Of a DNA stretch of 64,000 bases, positions 52,788 to 59,332 are shown one piece after another. Made by a program: the position numbers and the translations under genes. Location: NCBI GenBank assembly GCA_019057775.1, contig JAHLWT010000260.1:6915-70914 (forward strand), given 5' to 3'. How positions within the stretch are numbered: position 1 is the stretch's first letter; every line of letters starts with the position of its first letter. The notes under the pieces were generated by a model. The model had not been told where the DNA came from, did no database searches, and saw only the letters and a program-made list of their open reading frames with translations. This DNA comes from Promethearchaeota archaeon (GTDB lineage Archaea; Asgardarchaeota; Lokiarchaeia; Sigynarchaeales; SOKP01).

Positions 52788-53186
52788 TCATTTTATTAAA
52801 GATAGGCGTTCTTTATTACTTGAAAATTGGTTAGATAGTATACGATACTTACAATCGTCCCATTTTTTGCGAAATTCGTAAAAATATTCTGAAATATCTA
52901 ACAAATCTCCAAAAACTACTAAGTAATTTTCAATTATATAAATTTGGATATAAATAGGAAATAATTCAAAAACATGAATGTCAAATTTTAAAGGAAACTT
53001 TCCCAGCAGTTCCTCTTGCAGTTTCAAATTTTTATCTCTATCTTTATCCAAAGAAAGTATTGCGATATCAATATCCGAGGTTGGACGTATTCCTCCTTCC
53101 ACATGAGATCCAAACAACACTACATCATGTTTATCCTTCAAATAAATTAAATCCTTTCTCAATTGCGTAAGCTCAATTGATTTCAT
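52788..53186 (-). CDS. mntA: MntA-type nucleotidyltransferase antitoxin
   Basis: A 132-residue minimal nucleotidyltransferase. The motif is G26-S27 then D38-x-D40 (GSHVEGGIRPTSDID), with a third acidic residue in KFDIHVFE (about 68). In the HEPN-MNT family, MntA AMPylates a Tyr of HepT and neutralises it. Its start lies inside the 3' end of hepT (14-base overlap), which implies translational coupling. Length is typical for an MNT antitoxin. Likely function: defence or stress toxin-antitoxin module. Confidence 0.87.
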   Translation of the reverse strand: MKSIELTQLRKDLIYLKDKHDVVLFGSHVEGGIRPTSDIDIAILSLDKDRDKNLKLQEELLGKFPLKFDIHVFELFPIYIQIYIIENYLVVFGDLLDISEYFYEFRKKWDDCKYRILSNQFSSNKERLSLIK

Positions 53187-53577
53187 TTAGAATTTCCTCC
53201 GTGATATCTATCCATTCATATAAAAGATCTTTAATTTCTTTCACTGAATTTAGAATTTTTTGTTCTTCAAAAGAATTGTATCTATGGACTAACATATTTC
53301 GCAATCCATTAGCTTTTTTTAACTTTTCTCCTAAATCTGGTTTTAACTTCTTAAATTTAACGATTTCTGAGATATTTGTGAAGTCCTCTTTAACTGGGAT
53401 TCCTACATCTTTTACAAGCATCGCAACTAAATCAATTATTGCTTCGATTGAAGTTTGAAGAGAATAAAAGATCCCTCGTTTTTCAAACTCATTCTTAGGT
53501 TCTAACGGCAAATCTTTTAAATAATCTGTAGTATGATTTATTTTGTCGCGATATCGTTTGATTCTCATCTCATCCAT
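53173..53577 (-). CDS. hepT: HepT-type HEPN toxin
   Basis: A 134-residue all-helical HEPN protein (DUF86 type), an RNase toxin. The active motif R-x4-H-x-Y is R93, H98 and Y100 in RNMLVHRY; the Tyr is the residue AMPylated by MntA in characterised pairs. The start at 53577 follows a GAGGGAA box. The IS630 element begins only about 100 bases upstream of it, so the insertion may have altered the promoter. Confidence 0.88.
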   Translation of the reverse strand: MDEMRIKRYRDKINHTTDYLKDLPLEPKNEFEKRGIFYSLQTSIEAIIDLVAMLVKDVGIPVKEDFTNISEIVKFKKLKPDLGEKLKKANGLRNMLVHRYNSFEEQKILNSVKEIKDLLYEWIDITEEILNEIN

Positions 53578-53776: not shown

Positions 53777-54310
53777 ATGAAAAAACTTCAAATAACCAGG
53801 AGCTCACCCGATCACGATAAACTGGTCGAGCTCTACAAGAAAGAGCCCAAGGTAAAGCTGAAGGAGCGATACCAGGGGCTTTATTTAATGATTGAACTCG
53901 GAAATTGTACTAAAGTCGCAGAATTGATAAAAAAGTCCAGGAATACTGTACAAGCATGGGTAAAACTTTTTAATGAGAGGGGGTTAGAAGCTATCGCTCC
54001 AAATTCACCTCCTGGGAGGCCATCCAGGCTTTCAGATGATCAAAAGGAAGAGATAAAAGCGGATGTCATGAGACACCCGCGTGAGTTGGACTACGATTTT
54101 AGCAACTGGGAAGGAAAATCCGTTGCAGAACACATTCATATCAAGTTTGGTGTGTCGTTTTCCGTGCGCGCAGCTCAAAAACTCCTTCATTCACTAGGAT
54201 TTTCGCTTCAACGTCCGAAATATAAATTTCCTAAAGCAGATCCCGAAAAGCAGGAAGAATTTATTCGAGAGTTTAAAAAAAACTGGATTCTCTTGAACCA
54301 TACGACGTAG
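53777..54310 (+). CDS. IS630 transposase, N-terminal frame (HTH)
   Basis: 177 codons encode the DNA-binding part: a helix-turn-helix region (KVAELIKKSRNTVQAWVKLF, about 52-71), then the GRPSRLSD linker and a second helix-turn-helix (VSFSVRAAQKLLHSLGF). The frame ends TAG at 54308-54310. Just before, at 54272-54283, TTTAAAAAAAAC (eight A at 54275-54282) is a -1 slippery site. Shifting there continues as DSLEPYDVVLFQDEA, the normal IS630 catalytic-domain start. So the full transposase is made by programmed -1 frameshifting. Confidence 0.9.
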   Translation: MKKLQITRSSPDHDKLVELYKKEPKVKLKERYQGLYLMIELGNCTKVAELIKKSRNTVQAWVKLFNERGLEAIAPNSPPGRPSRLSDDQKEEIKADVMRHPRELDYDFSNWEGKSVAEHIHIKFGVSFSVRAAQKLLHSLGFSLQRPKYKFPKADPEKQEEFIREFKKNWILLNHTT

Positions 54311-54354
54311 TCCTCTTCCAAGATGAGGCAAGCGTTCAATTCTCTCCGAGTACC

Positions 54355-54837
54355 ATGCGCATGTGGTCTCTGAAAGGACATCAGCCGGAGATTTACACGT
54401 ACGGCGGTCGGAAACGGCAACACCTAATAGGGACTGTCGAACCCCTTGAAGGAAATTTGCATGTGGCATTTTCTGAAACTTTAAAAGCTCCACAGTTTCA
54501 GCATTATTTAGAAGGGCTACTTGCCAGATATCCAGCACCTAAGAAGCTCATCATAGTCTTGGATAATGCTCGGGCGCATCATTCAAAAGAGCTGAAACCG
54601 TTTTTAAAGACAAATGAGGAAAGGCTCGAACTGGTGTTTTTACCACCATATTCTCCCGATTTAAATCCCATGGAATGGTTCTGGAAATTTCTAAGAAAAA
54701 TGGTCACGCATAATACCTTTTTTCCGACGTTTAAGGATTTCCAGCGCGCTTTGATAAAATTCATCCTGAAACATAAAACATCTTCACCAGAAATTAAGAC
54801 TCGTTGCAGTTATGCCAAATTATTTTGTACGCCATAA
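54355..54837 (+). CDS. IS630 transposase, catalytic (DDE) frame
   Basis: The catalytic frame is -1 relative to the HTH frame. Its first in-frame ATG is 54355, but the real reading starts at the shift site near 54282, so that the first Asp (FQDEASV) is included. The second Asp lies in VLDNARAHHS and the Glu in PPYSPDLNPMEWFW, the classical IS630 D-D-E set. The stop TAA (54835-54837) lies inside the right inverted repeat. Alone from 54355 the protein would lack the first catalytic Asp. Confidence 0.9.
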   Translation: MRMWSLKGHQPEIYTYGGRKRQHLIGTVEPLEGNLHVAFSETLKAPQFQHYLEGLLARYPAPKKLIIVLDNARAHHSKELKPFLKTNEERLELVFLPPYSPDLNPMEWFWKFLRKMVTHNTFFPTFKDFQRALIKFILKHKTSSPEIKTRCSYAKLFCTP

Positions 54838-56799: not shown

Positions 56800-56863
56800 A
56801 CTTAGTACTCCATATTTAATGTTCTTTAATAGAATAGAATATAAAAATCTATTTATACTTTAT

Positions 56864-56914
56864 GATCCATAGTTAATCCAAGACTCCAAATAAAGTTCTG
56901 TAAAGTAAACTATA
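56864..56914 (+). promoter_or_regulatory. upstream box, tiny-ORF cassette A
   Basis: Core: GATCCAT, then about ten bases, then GACTCCAAATAAAGTTC and an AAACTATAA segment. It is homologous to the boxes at 57414 and 58166. It lies in the divergent gap between the winged-helix/TPR gene and the first tiny ORF and could serve both. The ACTCC...AAGTT pair is a weak dyad and might be a regulator site. Confidence 0.45.
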
Positions 56915-56939
56915 AGTATACTCTTTCACTAATAAAATT

Positions 56940-57032
56940 ATGACACAAAAAGAAGATAAGAAATGGAAGGAATCAATGGGTAATTATCTTTTGAATGGGT
57001 CCAAATTTCAGTTCTCATTAAAAGATCTATAA
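56940..57032 (+). CDS. tiny ORF A1 (30 aa)
   Basis: ATG at 56940, TAA at 57030-57032. The peptide begins MTQKEDKKWKESMG and ends KFQFSLKDL. It is 24 of 30 identical (by my count) to the peptide at 57546-57638, and several base changes between them are silent, which supports translation of both. Both share about 20 bases after the stop, ending in a T-tract. There is no hydrophobic leader, so no signal peptide. Function unknown. Confidence 0.55.
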   Translation: MTQKEDKKWKESMGNYLLNGSKFQFSLKDL

Positions 57033-57077
57033 TTTTACAATATTTTTTTTTTTAAACAACAAAATAATAAAAAAAGG

Positions 57078-57164
57078 ATGTGTGAAAAAATGAAAAAAAA
57101 TCAAAAAAATCCCAGACCAAGATTATTTTATGACCCTGTTTGGAATCAAATGGGAGATCTTTAA
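57078..57164 (+). CDS. tiny ORF A2 (24 or 28 aa)
   Basis: Two in-frame ATGs occur: 57078 (28 aa) and 57090 (24 aa); AAAAAAAGG precedes the first, so I list it. The peptide is basic at the start (KKNQKNPRPRLF) and ends YDPVWNQMGDL before TAA at 57162-57164. It lies 45 bases after A1 in the same cassette. The short acidic-Leu C-terminus (GDL) echoes KDL of A1 and B1, but that is weak evidence for kinship. Not recognised. Confidence 0.4.
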   Translation: MCEKMKKNQKNPRPRLFYDPVWNQMGDL

Positions 57165-57236
57165 TTCTAATATTTTTTAATGTTTGATAAACTATTACTT
57201 TACTTTAAGCTTATTTCATTAGTTTTTCTTTTCCAT

Positions 57237-57298
57237 TGAGAGAATGGGGCGAAAAGGCCTCCTAGTAACACTCGTTGCTAGGAGGTTATACCCTCTCA
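57237..57298 (+). ncRNA. long two-part hairpin between cassettes
   Basis: An inner stem CCTCCTAGTAAC (57258-57269) pairs with 57274-57285 through one G-U pair and a four-base loop (ACTC). An outer stem TGAGAG (57237-57242) pairs with CTCTCA (57293-57298), and GGG/CCC can extend it. The patch is GC-rich in AT-rich surroundings. An overlapping 36-codon frame (57244-57354, starts MGRKGLLV) exists, but pairing explains the sequence better. It may be a small structured RNA or part of a decayed mobile element. Confidence 0.4.
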
Positions 57299-57413
57299 TA
57301 AAAAAATATACCATCCATTTTAATTTCATGATACTATCTAAATCCTCCTTATAACCTTATTCTAACAATGAATTAACTTTGTTGTGAGTTCTCCTGGAAA
57401 CTTAAATGCTTAA

Positions 57414-57515
57414 GATCCATTAAAATTTAATTAGTCCAAAATGAGTACAAGACTCCAGATAAAGTTCCACAACTCAAACTAAATATAACAATGAAATAAT
57501 ATTAAAATTAAGAAA
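57414..57515 (+). promoter_or_regulatory. upstream box, tiny-ORF cassette B
   Basis: Begins GATCCATTAAAATTT and contains GACTCCAGATAAAGTTCC, then ACAACTCAAACTAAATATA, then AACAATGAAATAATAT. It matches the box at 58166 for about 100 bases and the box at 56864 over the core. The CTAAATATA segment could be a TATA box, about 45-60 bases before the start. Confidence 0.5.
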
Positions 57516-57536
57516 AAAAAAACAAAAACAATCGAG

Positions 57537-57638
57537 ATGAAAAGAATGGCAAGTAAAGAAGATAAGAAATGGAAGAAATCTATGGGCTGTTATCTTTTGG
57601 ATGGGAAGAAATTTCAATTCTCATTAAAAGATCTTTAA
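57537..57638 (+). CDS. tiny ORF B1 (33 or 30 aa)
   Basis: ATG at 57537 gives 33 residues; the in-frame ATG at 57546 gives 30 and aligns exactly with A1 (MASKEDKKWKKSMG...KFQFSLKDL). The stop TAA is at 57636-57638, followed by the same T-tract region as in A1. The shared core is EDKKW, a middle YLL and the KFQFSLKDL end. No signal peptide. It lies in front of the 93-residue gene at 57704, as A1 lies in front of A2. Confidence 0.55.
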   Translation: MKRMASKEDKKWKKSMGCYLLDGKKFQFSLKDL

Positions 57639-57703
57639 TTTTACAATATTTTTTTTTAATTTTTTAAAAATTACAAACTAATAAAATTGAGATGATAAAA
57701 TAA

Positions 57704-57985
57704 TTGACTCAACAATTAAAAGAACCAGAAAGAGATTATGAGGGCATAGAATTTCAGGTAGAGAGCTCTGATGGTTCTGATGTAGTTATATCGAGCCAAT
57801 CGAAATTGGAAAATAGGGGAAAAAAAAGAAATTCGCGATTTGCTAAGAAAAAACTGCAAGAATTAGTTGAAGAATCAAGATTTAATCCAAAATACTTTGA
57901 AAACAGAATGACTCTGAAAATAGCTAAACAAAAACAATTGGCTCGATATAATGAAGCCGAGTATAAGAGGGCATCCGGGGTTTAG
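57704..57985 (+). CDS. basic hypothetical protein, TTG start (93 aa)
   Basis: I do not recognise this protein. From TTG at 57704 it reads 93 residues: an acidic N-terminal third (PERDYEGIEFQVESSDGSD) and a strongly basic C-terminal part (KKRNSRFAKKKLQEL and later ENRMTLKIAKQKQLARY). No earlier in-frame ATG is possible, since TAA precedes the TTG. It is 65 bases behind tiny ORF B1 and probably in the same transcript. An 8-bp hairpin follows at 58002-58022. The charge split suggests nucleic-acid binding, which is inference. Confidence 0.5.
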   Translation: MTQQLKEPERDYEGIEFQVESSDGSDVVISSQSKLENRGKKRNSRFAKKKLQELVEESRFNPKYFENRMTLKIAKQKQLARYNEAEYKRASGV

Positions 57986-58001
57986 GTTAGGCTTGTTTTT
58001 T

Positions 58002-58022
58002 GAAGGTTTTTTTTAAACCTTC
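58002..58022 (+). terminator. hairpin after the 93-aa gene
   Basis: GAAGGTTT (58002-58009), loop TTTTT, AAACCTTC (58015-58022): a perfect 8-bp stem 16 bases after the stop. It may end cassette B transcription or protect its 3' end. Confidence 0.45.
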
Positions 58023-58165
58023 TCAAAACTTTCCGATTCTGTCTCCTTATTTCTAATTATGTATTTCTTATTATTATATGATTCAACTATTTTTGAATTA
58101 TCTCTTAAATTTTGATTTATTATCTGATTTTTATTGTAACCAGGATAGAATGCTTTTATTTAAAA

Positions 58166-58270
58166 AATCCATTAATTTTTAAATTGTCCAAATAAAATCC
58201 AAAACTCCATCTGAAGTTCTACAACTCAAACTAAATATAACAATAAAATAATATAAAATTAATAAACAAA
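58166..58270 (+). promoter_or_regulatory. upstream box, tiny-ORF cassette C
   Basis: Begins AATCCATTAATTTTT and contains AAACTCCATCTGAAGTTC, then TACAACTCAAACTAAATA and further matching sequence. It is the closest copy to the box at 57414. AACT...AGTT flanks the core as a small inverted repeat. Confidence 0.5.
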
Positions 58271-58300
58271 ATAAAAAAACAAAAAGAGTGAATAAAAAAA

Positions 58301-58390
58301 ATGAAAACCCCAAATAGAAAGCATGAGAAAGAAAGAATTAAAGCTATGCGAATCAATATAAGAGGACCAGAATATCCTTTTGGTCTTTAA
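58301..58390 (+). CDS. tiny ORF C1 (29 aa)
   Basis: ATG at 58301, TAA at 58388-58390. The peptide is basic at first (MKTPNRKHEKERIKAM) and ends RGPEYPFGL. It does not align clearly with A1 or B1, but it sits behind a homologous upstream box at a similar distance and ends in Leu. No leader peptide. Function unknown; translation is plausible because of the box, not proven. Confidence 0.4.
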   Translation: MKTPNRKHEKERIKAMRINIRGPEYPFGL

Positions 58391-58516
58391 ATGACCTTCT
58401 TTTTTTAAAATTTTTGACTTTTTGAAATTTTTCCTTAAACCGTTTTAAGAGTGAGATATTTGTTAGGTGATTTGAACTTACACCTCAGGAAAAATTTGAA
58501 AAATCAAGTCAAGTTG

Positions 58517-58579
58517 CTGAATTGAAAGATTTACCTCAAGGTAACAATTACAGAAAAAGATCTTTACTCAAAAATTAAA
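58517..58579 (+). repeat. 63-bp direct repeat, copy 1 (with 14-bp dyad)
   Basis: Starts CTGAATTGAAAGATTTACC and contains TTACCTCAAGGTAA (58531-58544), a perfect inverted repeat with a two-base centre, then ends near CTCAAAAATTAAA. It matches 59270-59332 at 62 of 63 positions. The dyad lies about 73 bases before the antitoxin-like start and looks like an operator. The repeat also reads as an open frame (ELKDLPQG..., ending LLKN and stop) in both copies, so it may instead be a duplicated gene end. Confidence 0.7.
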
Positions 58580-58616
58580 TTAATTTAGGTGGGTTTCCTT
58601 TTATTAATTAATCATT

Positions 58617-58850
58617 ATGACTCAAGTTAAATTAGATAAATCTCTGGTTGAAGATTTAATTACTTCAAAATTAAGAATTTTAAAACAATATATAAATGAG
58701 ATTTTAACACGTTGGAATGAATCATCCACTAAAAACTTTTTAGAAAAAGCACGTACGGGAATTTATGACAATGCTGAAGATGATGCTGTGGAATTACAGC
58801 AATTATTATTAGACTATTCAAAATTACAAGAGATTTTAAATAAACTATAA
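58617..58850 (+). CDS. helical small protein, candidate antitoxin (77 aa)
   Basis: A 77-residue, wholly helical protein (SLVEDLITSKLRILKQYINE, then DDAVELQQLLLDYSKLQEIL) with no catalytic motif. It is 22 bases upstream of a TumE-like toxin candidate, in the order expected of an antitoxin-toxin pair. I do not recognise the family; the call comes from position and size. Confidence 0.5.
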   Translation: MTQVKLDKSLVEDLITSKLRILKQYINEILTRWNESSTKNFLEKARTGIYDNAEDDAVELQQLLLDYSKLQEILNKL

Positions 58851-58872
58851 AATTATTTGTAGATGCATTTAA

Positions 58873-59235
58873 ATGGATTCTCGAAAGAATCTTGAATTAG
58901 CACGCAATATTATAATAAAAGACTATAGCACGCTTATAAGGAAAATTATCCTTGATAAAGACCGTCCAGTCTTAAAAGCGGTCTTCAATAATGAAGTTAA
59001 TCTCTATATTCGCTATAACGATTACGGAGAATACTCCTATTCTGTTATTTTTTCTCCTAATCCTGATGATCAAATGCGCTTTGATAATTATGATGATATA
59101 TGGGATGTAAAAACACGTCCTCATCATTTTCATCAGAGAAGAATGCAATCAATTGTAGAAAGTCCGATGATGGGAGAACCAAAGCATGATATTTCTATTC
59201 TTTTAAAAAATATTTTAGATTCTCTTAAGAAATAA
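58873..59235 (+). CDS. TumE/DUF6516-like toxin candidate
   Basis: A 120-residue protein whose core matches the pattern of TumE/DUF6516-type toxins: a beta strand set (NLYIRYNDYGEYSYSVIFSP, 43-62), then RFDN (69-72), PHHFH (83-87) and ESP...I..LL near the end. In that family the His/Arg set is thought to serve a nuclease or nucleotide function. The preceding helical gene is the likely antitoxin. The pair is framed by 63-bp direct repeats. A short open frame continues past the stop into the second repeat. The family assignment is from memory of the pattern, not a search. Confidence 0.55.
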   Translation: MDSRKNLELARNIIIKDYSTLIRKIILDKDRPVLKAVFNNEVNLYIRYNDYGEYSYSVIFSPNPDDQMRFDNYDDIWDVKTRPHHFHQRRMQSIVESPMMGEPKHDISILLKNILDSLKK

Positions 59236-59269
59236 CCTTTTTATAAATTTATTCTTCGGGATTTCACGT

Positions 59270-59332
59270 CTGAATTGAAAGATTTACCTCAAGGTAAGAA
59301 TTACAGAAAAAGATCTTTACTCAAAAATTAAA
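59270..59332 (+). repeat. 63-bp direct repeat, copy 2 (with 14-bp dyad)
   Basis: Matches 58517-58579 with one difference (C to G). The dyad is at 59284-59297. It lies 35 bases after the toxin stop and 157 bases before the Ras-like GTPase gene. After it, TTCCTTAAACTGTTTAAA resembles TTCCTTAAACCGTTTTAAG at 58428-58450, so more than the 63 bases is duplicated. Confidence 0.7.

Follow-up and report, generated by a model that had tools for sequence, protein, structure and literature searches.

A small-protein gene array with shared promoter boxes beside an HTH-TPR regulator and a Ras-like GTPase in a Lokiarchaeal genome

The array and the F1 family

We examined an array of small-protein genes in a 64,000-nucleotide (nt) stretch of a Promethearchaeota archaeon (contig JAHLWT010000260.1, positions 6,915 to 70,914), which we call the window and whose coordinates are used below. 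Between positions 56864 and 58390, three promoter boxes and five small open reading frames (ORFs) lie on the plus strand in the order box-A1-A2, box-B1-B2 and box-C1. Upstream stands the gene of a divergent 651-amino acid (aa) regulator with helix-turn-helix (HTH) and tetratricopeptide repeat (TPR) domains and downstream, past an insertion, that of a Ras-like GTPase (Table 1). A preliminary description of the array had described the five ORFs correctly. It missed the larger unit, to which the regulator and the GTPase also belong, and it missed the box as a promoter-proximal element linked to the regulator.

A1 and B1 belong to one family, F1. Counted from the homologous 30-aa start of B1 at 57546, 24 of 30 residues are identical (80%), and the silent changes noted earlier are included, since about 4.8 of the 15 base differences in 90 positions are synonymous (4.8 differences over 14.8 synonymous sites and 10.2 over 75.2 nonsynonymous sites, all small counts). 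A contig search with the 651-aa regulator returned 22 loci, with titles that all name Lokiarchaeota or Lokiarchaeia, and F1 relatives were found there. First relatives were collected through tblastn and an iterated profile; using a 17-sequence alignment as the query, 227 Asgard genomes then yielded 55 F1 rows in 31 genomes (E<=0.001; one to five per genome). The constant part of the family is a C-terminal tail of about 24-30 residues, WKxSxxYYLLNPxKFxFGLKDL, and total length in the fetched loci is 26-112 aa, with a sole exception of 296 aa. Across 37 distinct tails (247 non-independent pairs), the ratio of nonsynonymous to synonymous change (dN/dS) is about 0.19 (proportions of synonymous and nonsynonymous differences, pS 0.546 and pN 0.165), pointing to codon-level constraint on the tail. 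The tail is also portable. It ends the 296-aa protein in one genome, and the body of this protein has relatives in 66 of the 227 genomes, of which all 18 with readable ends lack the F1 tail (20 loci fetched; L161 is the query genome and L162 gave no readable ORF).

The preliminary description had called the array a real, recently amplified system and proposed searching the peptides and boxes against Asgard genomes and measuring dN/dS across homologues, with missing homologous cassettes or missing codon-level constraint as grounds for doubt. F1 relatives in 31 genomes and the constrained tail bear out a real system, and homologues and constraint together mean that neither sequence-based ground for doubt applies. 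Recent amplification fits the A1/B1 pair only; boxes and F1 members occur across the clade and have diverged from one another.

A protein search with 18 longer F1 members returned 251 predicted proteins, and the 120 of these that were listed carry no Pfam domain and are named as hypothetical proteins of Asgard archaea. Pfam gave nothing above cut-off for five F1 relatives, just two weak sub-threshold matches, and left B2 unmatched, as did an NCBIfam scan of B2 and one protein each of F1, F2 and F4 (families described below). The earlier statement that no known family comes to mind is thus borne out for B2, F1 relatives, F2 and F4, with A1, A2, B1 and C1 themselves unscanned.

Table 1. Features of the locus and examples from related loci (PWM, position weight matrix; HMM, hidden Markov model; positions are those of the window unless a locus is named)
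Feature	Position	Strand	Remarks
HTH-TPR regulator, 651 aa	54844..56799	-	divergent from array; Pfam HTH_45, HTH_34 and TPR above cut-off
Box A	56880..56916	+	imperfect dyad AAGACTCC-AAATA-AAGTTC, 8 nt, TATA; PWM 35.5 bits
A1, 30 aa, family F1	56940..57032	+	F1 HMM E=4e-17 (A1 itself in model)
A2, 28 aa	57078..57164	+	ORF without own box; putative coding, homologue not found
G+C-rich stem-loop between cassettes A and B	57237..57298	+	57235-57310 folds at -29.3 kcal/mol
Box B	57449..57485	+	dyad and TATA; PWM 36.2 bits
B1, 33 aa, family F1	57537..57638	+	F1 HMM E=2e-16 (B1 also in model)
B2, 93 aa, TTG start	57704..57985	+	FNPKYFE, resembling NPRYFE of F3/F4; relatives and alignment
Box C	58201..58237	+	dyad and TATA; PWM 35.3 bits
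C1, 29 aa, tiny basic peptide	58301..58390	+	size, charge and promoter F5-like; homologue not found
Ras-like GTPase, 186 aa	59489..60049	+	Pfam Ras E=3e-40; recurrent partner gene of module
PepF-type M3 oligopeptidase, example	L001:7838-9628
PepF-type M3 oligopeptidase, example	L007:14170-15960
PepF-type M3 oligopeptidase, example	L094:12786-14576
Conserved hairpin RNA, example	L001:5623-5714	-

The promoter box and the genes behind it

The three homologous upstream boxes of the preliminary description are recovered at several scales. A 47-nt family lies at 56866, 57435 and 58187, its later members 72-74% identical to the first, a 125-nt direct repeat at 57412 and 58164 is 78% identical, and the whole 64-kb window holds three exact copies of the core ACTCCNNNTNAAGTTC, at 56883, 57452 and 58204. 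By aligning the upstream regions of relatives and then iterating a PWM, we derived the box as a 37-mer composed of an imperfect dyad, 8 nt and AAACTATATA, and the window sites score 35-36 bits. The gap from the 37-mer to ATG is 23 nt for A1, 51 nt for B1 and 63 nt for C1. Judged by their sequences, the three boxes are one promoter element. Among relatives the dyad is of type i, like AAGACTCC-N5-RAGTTY, or of type ii, like CGAACTTC-N5-AAGTTC.

A strict box pattern has 137 matches in 47 of the 227 genomes. By hand count, the 31 F1 genomes account for 115 matches (30 of these genomes have one or more) and the remaining 196 genomes for 22, compared with 5 and 34, respectively, for a reversed-pattern control. 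We rejected chance repeats as the origin of the boxes, because the exact core is found thrice in 64 kb, all here, and because the genome-wide excess is large. Of 20 further box regions, each read over roughly 2.7-6.3 kb, 19 are without a relative of the window HTH-TPR protein or GTPase, while one has a GTPase relative at 35% identity; an ATG-started ORF of 20-100 aa lies 45-70 nt downstream in 14. Since most of these regions are without a nearby regulator, the regulon would extend beyond the regulator loci, and the boxes appear to mark a clade-wide regulon.

Such ORFs stand 45-70 nt behind 44 of 87 distinct boxes, compared with 341 of 4000 random positions, and 38 of the 44 start 47-57 nt downstream. 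Besides F1, the box-driven families include F2 (about 84 aa, ...YNAKYLEE...IHYRNYGNF), F3 and F4, with 59-95 aa and in most cases the motif NPRYFEE, and tiny basic peptides (22-29 aa), for example MKKNAKEGLIKINNYGQNPLFRDLLK, MNKKEKRVSKVIAGYNPVIQSFIR and MKRKVNAQIIIKNAEFAFQSITR, which combine a basic N-terminus with a diverse C-terminal part. For three small sets of tiny peptides (F5, F6), dN/dS values of 0.11, 0.31 and 0.29 come from one, three and one pairs and are weak. Larger genes stand behind some boxes, encoding a histidine-kinase-like protein of 242-254 aa, a 133-aa protein and a few others. As the preliminary description had noted for the array, a signal peptide is not apparent in 26 box-driven tiny peptides, in which the maximum 11-residue Kyte-Doolittle mean, a crude measure, is -0.4 to 1.6. 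The motif [LYF]NPx[FYIK] is shared by 17 of the 44 small ORFs (0.006 in shuffled peptides); we set it aside as support for a ligand, because F1 and F4 relatives are counted repeatedly.

B2 has seven other relatives from metagenome sources (51-92% identity), which are kept along their length, and in a comparison with F2, F3 and F4 examples it aligns with those of F3 and F4 around NPKYFE. Most of the relatives start four codons upstream (e.g. MIKKLTQQ...). At that upstream start, positions 57692-57706, the window reads ATG ATA AAA TAA TTG, and we therefore read B2 from the TTG. By its size, charge and promoter, C1 resembles the tiny basic peptides; A2, which is probably co-transcribed with A1, might belong with them as well.

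Behind seven boxes, the conserved element is a hairpin of the GAGAGCTC...GAGCTCTC type and not a small ORF. The hairpin model R1 has 16 pairs, 3 with compensatory change, and matches 15 of the 227 genomes at E<=0.01, one weakly (E 0.009). These hairpins, together with the strong hairpin of the window at 57237-57298, fit an explanation in which the boxes are real promoters of the regulator family, most tiny ORFs are leaders or by-products, and RNA or the downstream gene is the functional product. The F1 dN/dS, the 251 F1-like predicted proteins in the protein database and the conservation of B2 relatives over their length oppose this explanation, which we consider very unlikely. The conserved hairpin RNA of relatives (GGAGAGCTC...GAGCTCTCC, with a purine-rich 5' part), which is the one behind the seven boxes, was seen in L056, L057, L063, L109, L003, L005, L055, L001 and L004. 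The window stem-loop starts with GAGAGAATGGGG, reminiscent of the 5' part of the relatives' hairpin; as its counterpart we rejected it, with R1 finding no match there, and it is possibly an RNA element or a terminator. Rfam gave nothing at gathering score in the window; a permissive scan yielded four weak matches in 56800-58500 (E 1.9-3.8), which we ascribe to chance and not to a known RNA family.

Linkage of the box to the HTH-TPR regulator

The regulator consists of two winged helices (about residues 20-90 and 100-175), a middle region and a TPR superhelix (415-651). Its AlphaFold2 model has a mean predicted local distance difference test (pLDDT) of 82, a good local value, and a predicted template modelling score (pTM) of 0.41, which is low and makes the domain arrangement unreliable. 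The HTH-TPR family is present in 50 of the 227 Asgard genomes (E<=1e-60; at most five first-look candidates scored per genome, matches listed only), and all 31 F1 genomes are among these 50. For 41 of 130 strict boxes, an HTH-TPR gene starts at most 400 nt away with the box on its upstream side, every time in divergent orientation, when 0.05 are expected. The distances cluster at 56-57, 81-88 and 93-101 nt; Box A, located between the regulator and A1, is by arithmetic 82 nt from the regulator start, inside the second cluster. This count used 130 of the 137 box rows, dropping G069, G099, G105, G107, G175, G180 and G210 (no HTH-TPR), and 141 HTH-TPR rows, omitting G101, G110, G111, G112, G114, G116, G122 and G154 (no strict box); the expected values for box and F1 linkage assume 43 genomes of 3.6 Mb. 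In the fetched loci, a divergent box above 15 bits is found within 420 nt of 37 of 55 distinct HTH-TPR genes and in none of 1100 mononucleotide shuffles. The latter fraction is inflated because loci L111-L160 were fetched for boxes, and 41 of 130 is the less biased test.

The box also varies with the regulator. Distances between boxes correlate with those between N-terminal winged helices (Mantel r=0.60, reached by none of 2000 permutations, a value that kinship inflates), and the correlation is still 0.40 among pairs below 70% identity; the permutation tests treat related genes as they stand. Paralogues within one genome carry different box types (e.g. L007, L018). The two box types are best told apart at 18 columns, 14 of which are located in residues 20-90, the first winged helix; the second winged helix is nearly the same in both types. 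From linkage and covariation, the HTH-TPR protein very probably reads the box. We infer that the divergent regulator would bind the dyad through its two winged helices, the first reading the paralogue-variable half-site (ACTCC or AACTTC) and the nearly invariant second reading the more constant one (AGTTY). Archaeal activators usually bind immediately upstream of TATA, which is where the box stands, so binding would most likely activate the small-protein genes. As Box A lies between the regulator and A1, the regulator probably controls its own gene too.

F1 is likewise linked to the regulator. Within 3 kb upstream of an HTH-TPR start, always in divergent orientation, we found 28 of 55 F1 rows (0.15 expected), 8 of them within 300 nt, using the 45 HTH-TPR rows on contigs with an F1 row. 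This is the less biased figure, because the fetched loci were partly chosen for HTH-TPR.

We tentatively favour, at somewhat less than an even chance, a reading in which the array supplies the small proteins of a Lokiarchaeal module that regulates itself, with regulators binding the box and the small proteins acting as intracellular ligands of the TPR groove. Small proteins F1 to F6 carry short conserved C-terminal motifs and would most likely stay inside the cell; their tails would dock in the groove and close a feedback loop that sets regulon output, and the linked Ras-like GTPase would be a co-encoded effector or input. In TPR superhelices, the A helices line the groove. In the regulator, conservation is higher in the A than in the B helices (entropy 0.90 vs 1.42, p=0.0001, residues taken as independent), and the model of residues 415-651 resembles many TPR structures, including peptide-bound HOP TPR2A with MEEVD and CHIP. 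The role we find most likely for the tails, though with confidence that stops short of even, is that of peptides bound by the TPR domain; the chief alternative is that they bind the GTPase. TPR binding is favoured because of the structure matches, the conserved A helices and a frequent neighbouring peptidase of a pheromone-clearing type.

Several points weigh against this reading. Within 3 kb upstream, 27 of 55 F1 rows have no listed HTH-TPR (at most five candidates scored per genome), and at 18 of 55 HTH-TPR genes a box above 15 bits is missing. A2 and C1 gave no significant relative in two homology searches. Box types also track the descent of the paralogues, and their covariation with the first winged helix therefore does not prove contact. 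The distance data do not single out peptide-TPR binding: in 22 triples, F1 distances correlate about equally with those of the TPR (0.42), the middle region (0.44) and the GTPase (0.40), with partial correlations of 0.22 and 0.15. We tried F1-TPR coevolution as deciding evidence, and it does not decide, because the three correlations are alike. The F1 tail is also found on proteins of 65-112 aa, so a docking tail suits it better than a dedicated free ligand. Finally, the evidence throughout, also on expression of these genes, comes from sequence and predicted structure.

Neighbouring genes and known systems

Of 53 F1 copies, 32 have a Ras-superfamily GTPase and 28 an HTH-TPR gene within 5 kb, and F2 is near 18 (median distance 32 nt). 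The regulon could accordingly be the same and the small proteins be partners or regulators of the Ras-like GTPase, as effector peptides, adaptors or nucleotide-exchange regulators, with HTH-TPR only controlling expression. Compact modules of regulator, one 26-30-aa microprotein and GTPase (L007, L018, L009) support this, and in L071, L079, L098 and L099 F1 lies near a longer GTPase of 344-356 aa (Ras by Pfam in L071 and L079) with no HTH-TPR in the fetched stretch; the F1-GTPase correlation counts for it as well. On the other side, the 2.8-4.2 kb read around the box-driven peptides of L142, L151, L156, L158 and L159 contain no gene related to the window GTPase, and small GTPases may be common in these genomes. 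We regard a GTPase partnership of this kind as rather unlikely.

A PepF-type M3 oligopeptidase gene is convergent with the HTH-TPR gene, 9-26 nt past its stop, in 9 of 10 loci holding the peptidase. Three of these neighbouring peptidases match Pfam Peptidase_M3, and the best NCBIfam match, M3_fam_3, is below cut-off. At E<=1e-100, PepF-type peptidases are present in 32 of 227 genomes (14 among the 50 HTH-TPR genomes and 18 without HTH-TPR); in 10 of the 14 genomes holding both, the two genes are within 50 nt (coordinates compared by hand). The peptidase bears on a third possibility, in which the tiny peptides would be exported and processed and would re-enter the cell to bind the TPR domain, as an archaeal parallel of RRNPPA quorum sensing. 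Its closeness to the HTH-TPR stop fits exported signals, as do an HTH and TPR regulator with adjoining tiny genes, a regulator-linked operator before peptide genes, and the basic N-terminus and diverse C-terminal part of the tiny peptides. PepF of Streptococcus salivarius is reported to break down XIP, the ComRS pheromone, within the cell (PMC9173638). However, the hydropathy measure found no hydrophobic signal segment in the tiny peptides, F1 tails are conserved across species and not hypervariable, and they also end the 65-112-aa proteins and the 296-aa protein. PepF is limited to 14 of 50 HTH-TPR genomes, occurs in 18 without HTH-TPR and is not in the window, and no exporter was recognised by eye among 40 neighbour clusters listed, mostly unannotated. 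Export seems unlikely to us.

In place of the peptidase, the window holds a transposase and a toxin-antitoxin-like pair. Two neighbouring ORFs at 53777-54837 resemble halves of an IS630-like transposase (the HTH part by Pfam, the catalytic-looking part by eye), and a nucleotidyltransferase (Polbeta) and HepT-like HEPN pair at 52788-53577 is likely an MNT-HEPN toxin-antitoxin system. Between C1 and the GTPase, at 58517-59332, a two-gene insertion with a 77-aa ORF and a 120-aa ORF, the latter matching toxin TumE (PF20126) exactly at cut-off, is flanked by a 63-nt direct repeat (98% identical, at 58517 and 59270) and looks like a toxin-antitoxin insertion into the module. Elsewhere, F1 and F2 pairs at L082, L084, L085, L088 and L102-L105 adjoin genes that by eye are 3-hydroxyacyl-CoA dehydrogenase-like and short-chain dehydrogenase/reductase (SDR)-like, with neither HTH-TPR nor GTPase in the fetched stretch. 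In L001, L002, L004 and L007 (e.g. L007:4106-6343, minus strand), the genes within 5 kb of F1 copies include one for a B12-binding radical SAM protein (about 745 aa).

Among known systems, streptococcal Rgg-SHP is alike in that a DNA-binding regulator stands beside a small peptide gene whose promoter it binds, and in that annotation misses the small ORFs (PMC3150281, in excerpt). Box linkage and covariation indirectly suggest that the regulator may bind the peptide-gene promoter here as well. SHP pheromones are short hydrophobic peptides that depend on Opp and Eep (same source), whereas the Lokiarchaeal tiny peptides are basic and not hydrophobic. Here, moreover, a single operator type serves several families, two winged helices form the DNA-binding part, and a Ras-like GTPase gene is linked to the module.

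RRNPPA regulators are of TPR type, like the Lokiarchaeal HTH-TPR protein, and have an N-terminal HTH_3-like domain followed by TPR. The window regulator has HTH_45, HTH_34 (MarR-like below cut-off) and TPR, and HTH_3 is not among the 25 Pfam families listed out of 26. As in RRNPPA systems with Phr/PapR/AimP-type peptides, where peptide genes lie immediately beside regulators and pheromone units are duplicated (PMC11343458, in part), the Lokiarchaeal array has duplicated peptide genes, and a peptide gene next to the receptor gene is found in the 28 of 55 F1 rows (8 within 300 nt) described above. The propeptides described in that source are 50-120 aa, Sec-exported and from Bacillota; the Lokiarchaeal products are 22-33 aa or 59-112 aa, without a Sec-like segment, and from Asgard archaea. 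A crude hydropathy test gave no sign of Sec export of a propeptide in the 26 box-driven tiny peptides. No RRNPPA receptor is named in the 60 sequence and 50 structure matches listed, which excludes nothing. We did not assign the system to RRNPPA, since tests found neither that family's kind of DNA-binding domain nor a Sec signal.

Three further likenesses are partial. In PepF-ComRS of Streptococcus salivarius, an oligoendopeptidase F is linked to a peptide-regulator circuit and shown to degrade the pheromone (PMC9173638, in excerpt), whereas the Lokiarchaeal link is known from gene neighbourhood alone and the window is without the gene. The predicted C-terminal domain shares the fold of HOP TPR2A with MEEVD and of CHIP (root-mean-square deviation 1.9-2.0 A over 124-127 residues), but these are co-chaperones. 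AfsR of Streptomyces is a transcription regulator of SARP type that also combines DNA-binding and TPR domains, but in a SARP, NOD and TPR arrangement, and the start of its abstract does not mention a linked tiny-peptide regulon (PMC10936776).

A broader proposal, which we hold to be possible but doubtful, is a Lokiarchaeal peptide-code network, in which paralogous HTH-TPR receptors have their own operator variants, govern families of tiny proteins and are in turn tuned by them, tails dock in TPR domains, PepF clears peptides in part of the clade and Ras-like GTPases are dedicated to the circuits. We found no published description of an HTH-TPR/tiny-protein system in the listed titles and abstract starts of open-licence literature on Asgard small proteins, Asgard or Lokiarchaeal regulators and archaeal pheromones. 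To our knowledge, the roles of many small GTPases and of proteins under 100 aa in Asgard archaea are largely unknown. Tiny genes overlooked by annotation can be found easily through the sequence of the box, which led to several further peptide families; with regulator, operator, tiny proteins and Ras-like GTPase, the locus offers a defined, testable Asgard circuit. If the tails bind the TPR domain, they would add a peptide-ligand layer to archaeal gene control, of which we found no report among those listed titles and abstract starts. Lokiarchaea are microbes related to the ancestors of complex cells. If the broader proposal is true, peptide-receptor regulation would have evolved in archaea independently of RRNPPA, and small GTPases would take part in a transcription-linked signalling circuit in relatives of eukaryotes.

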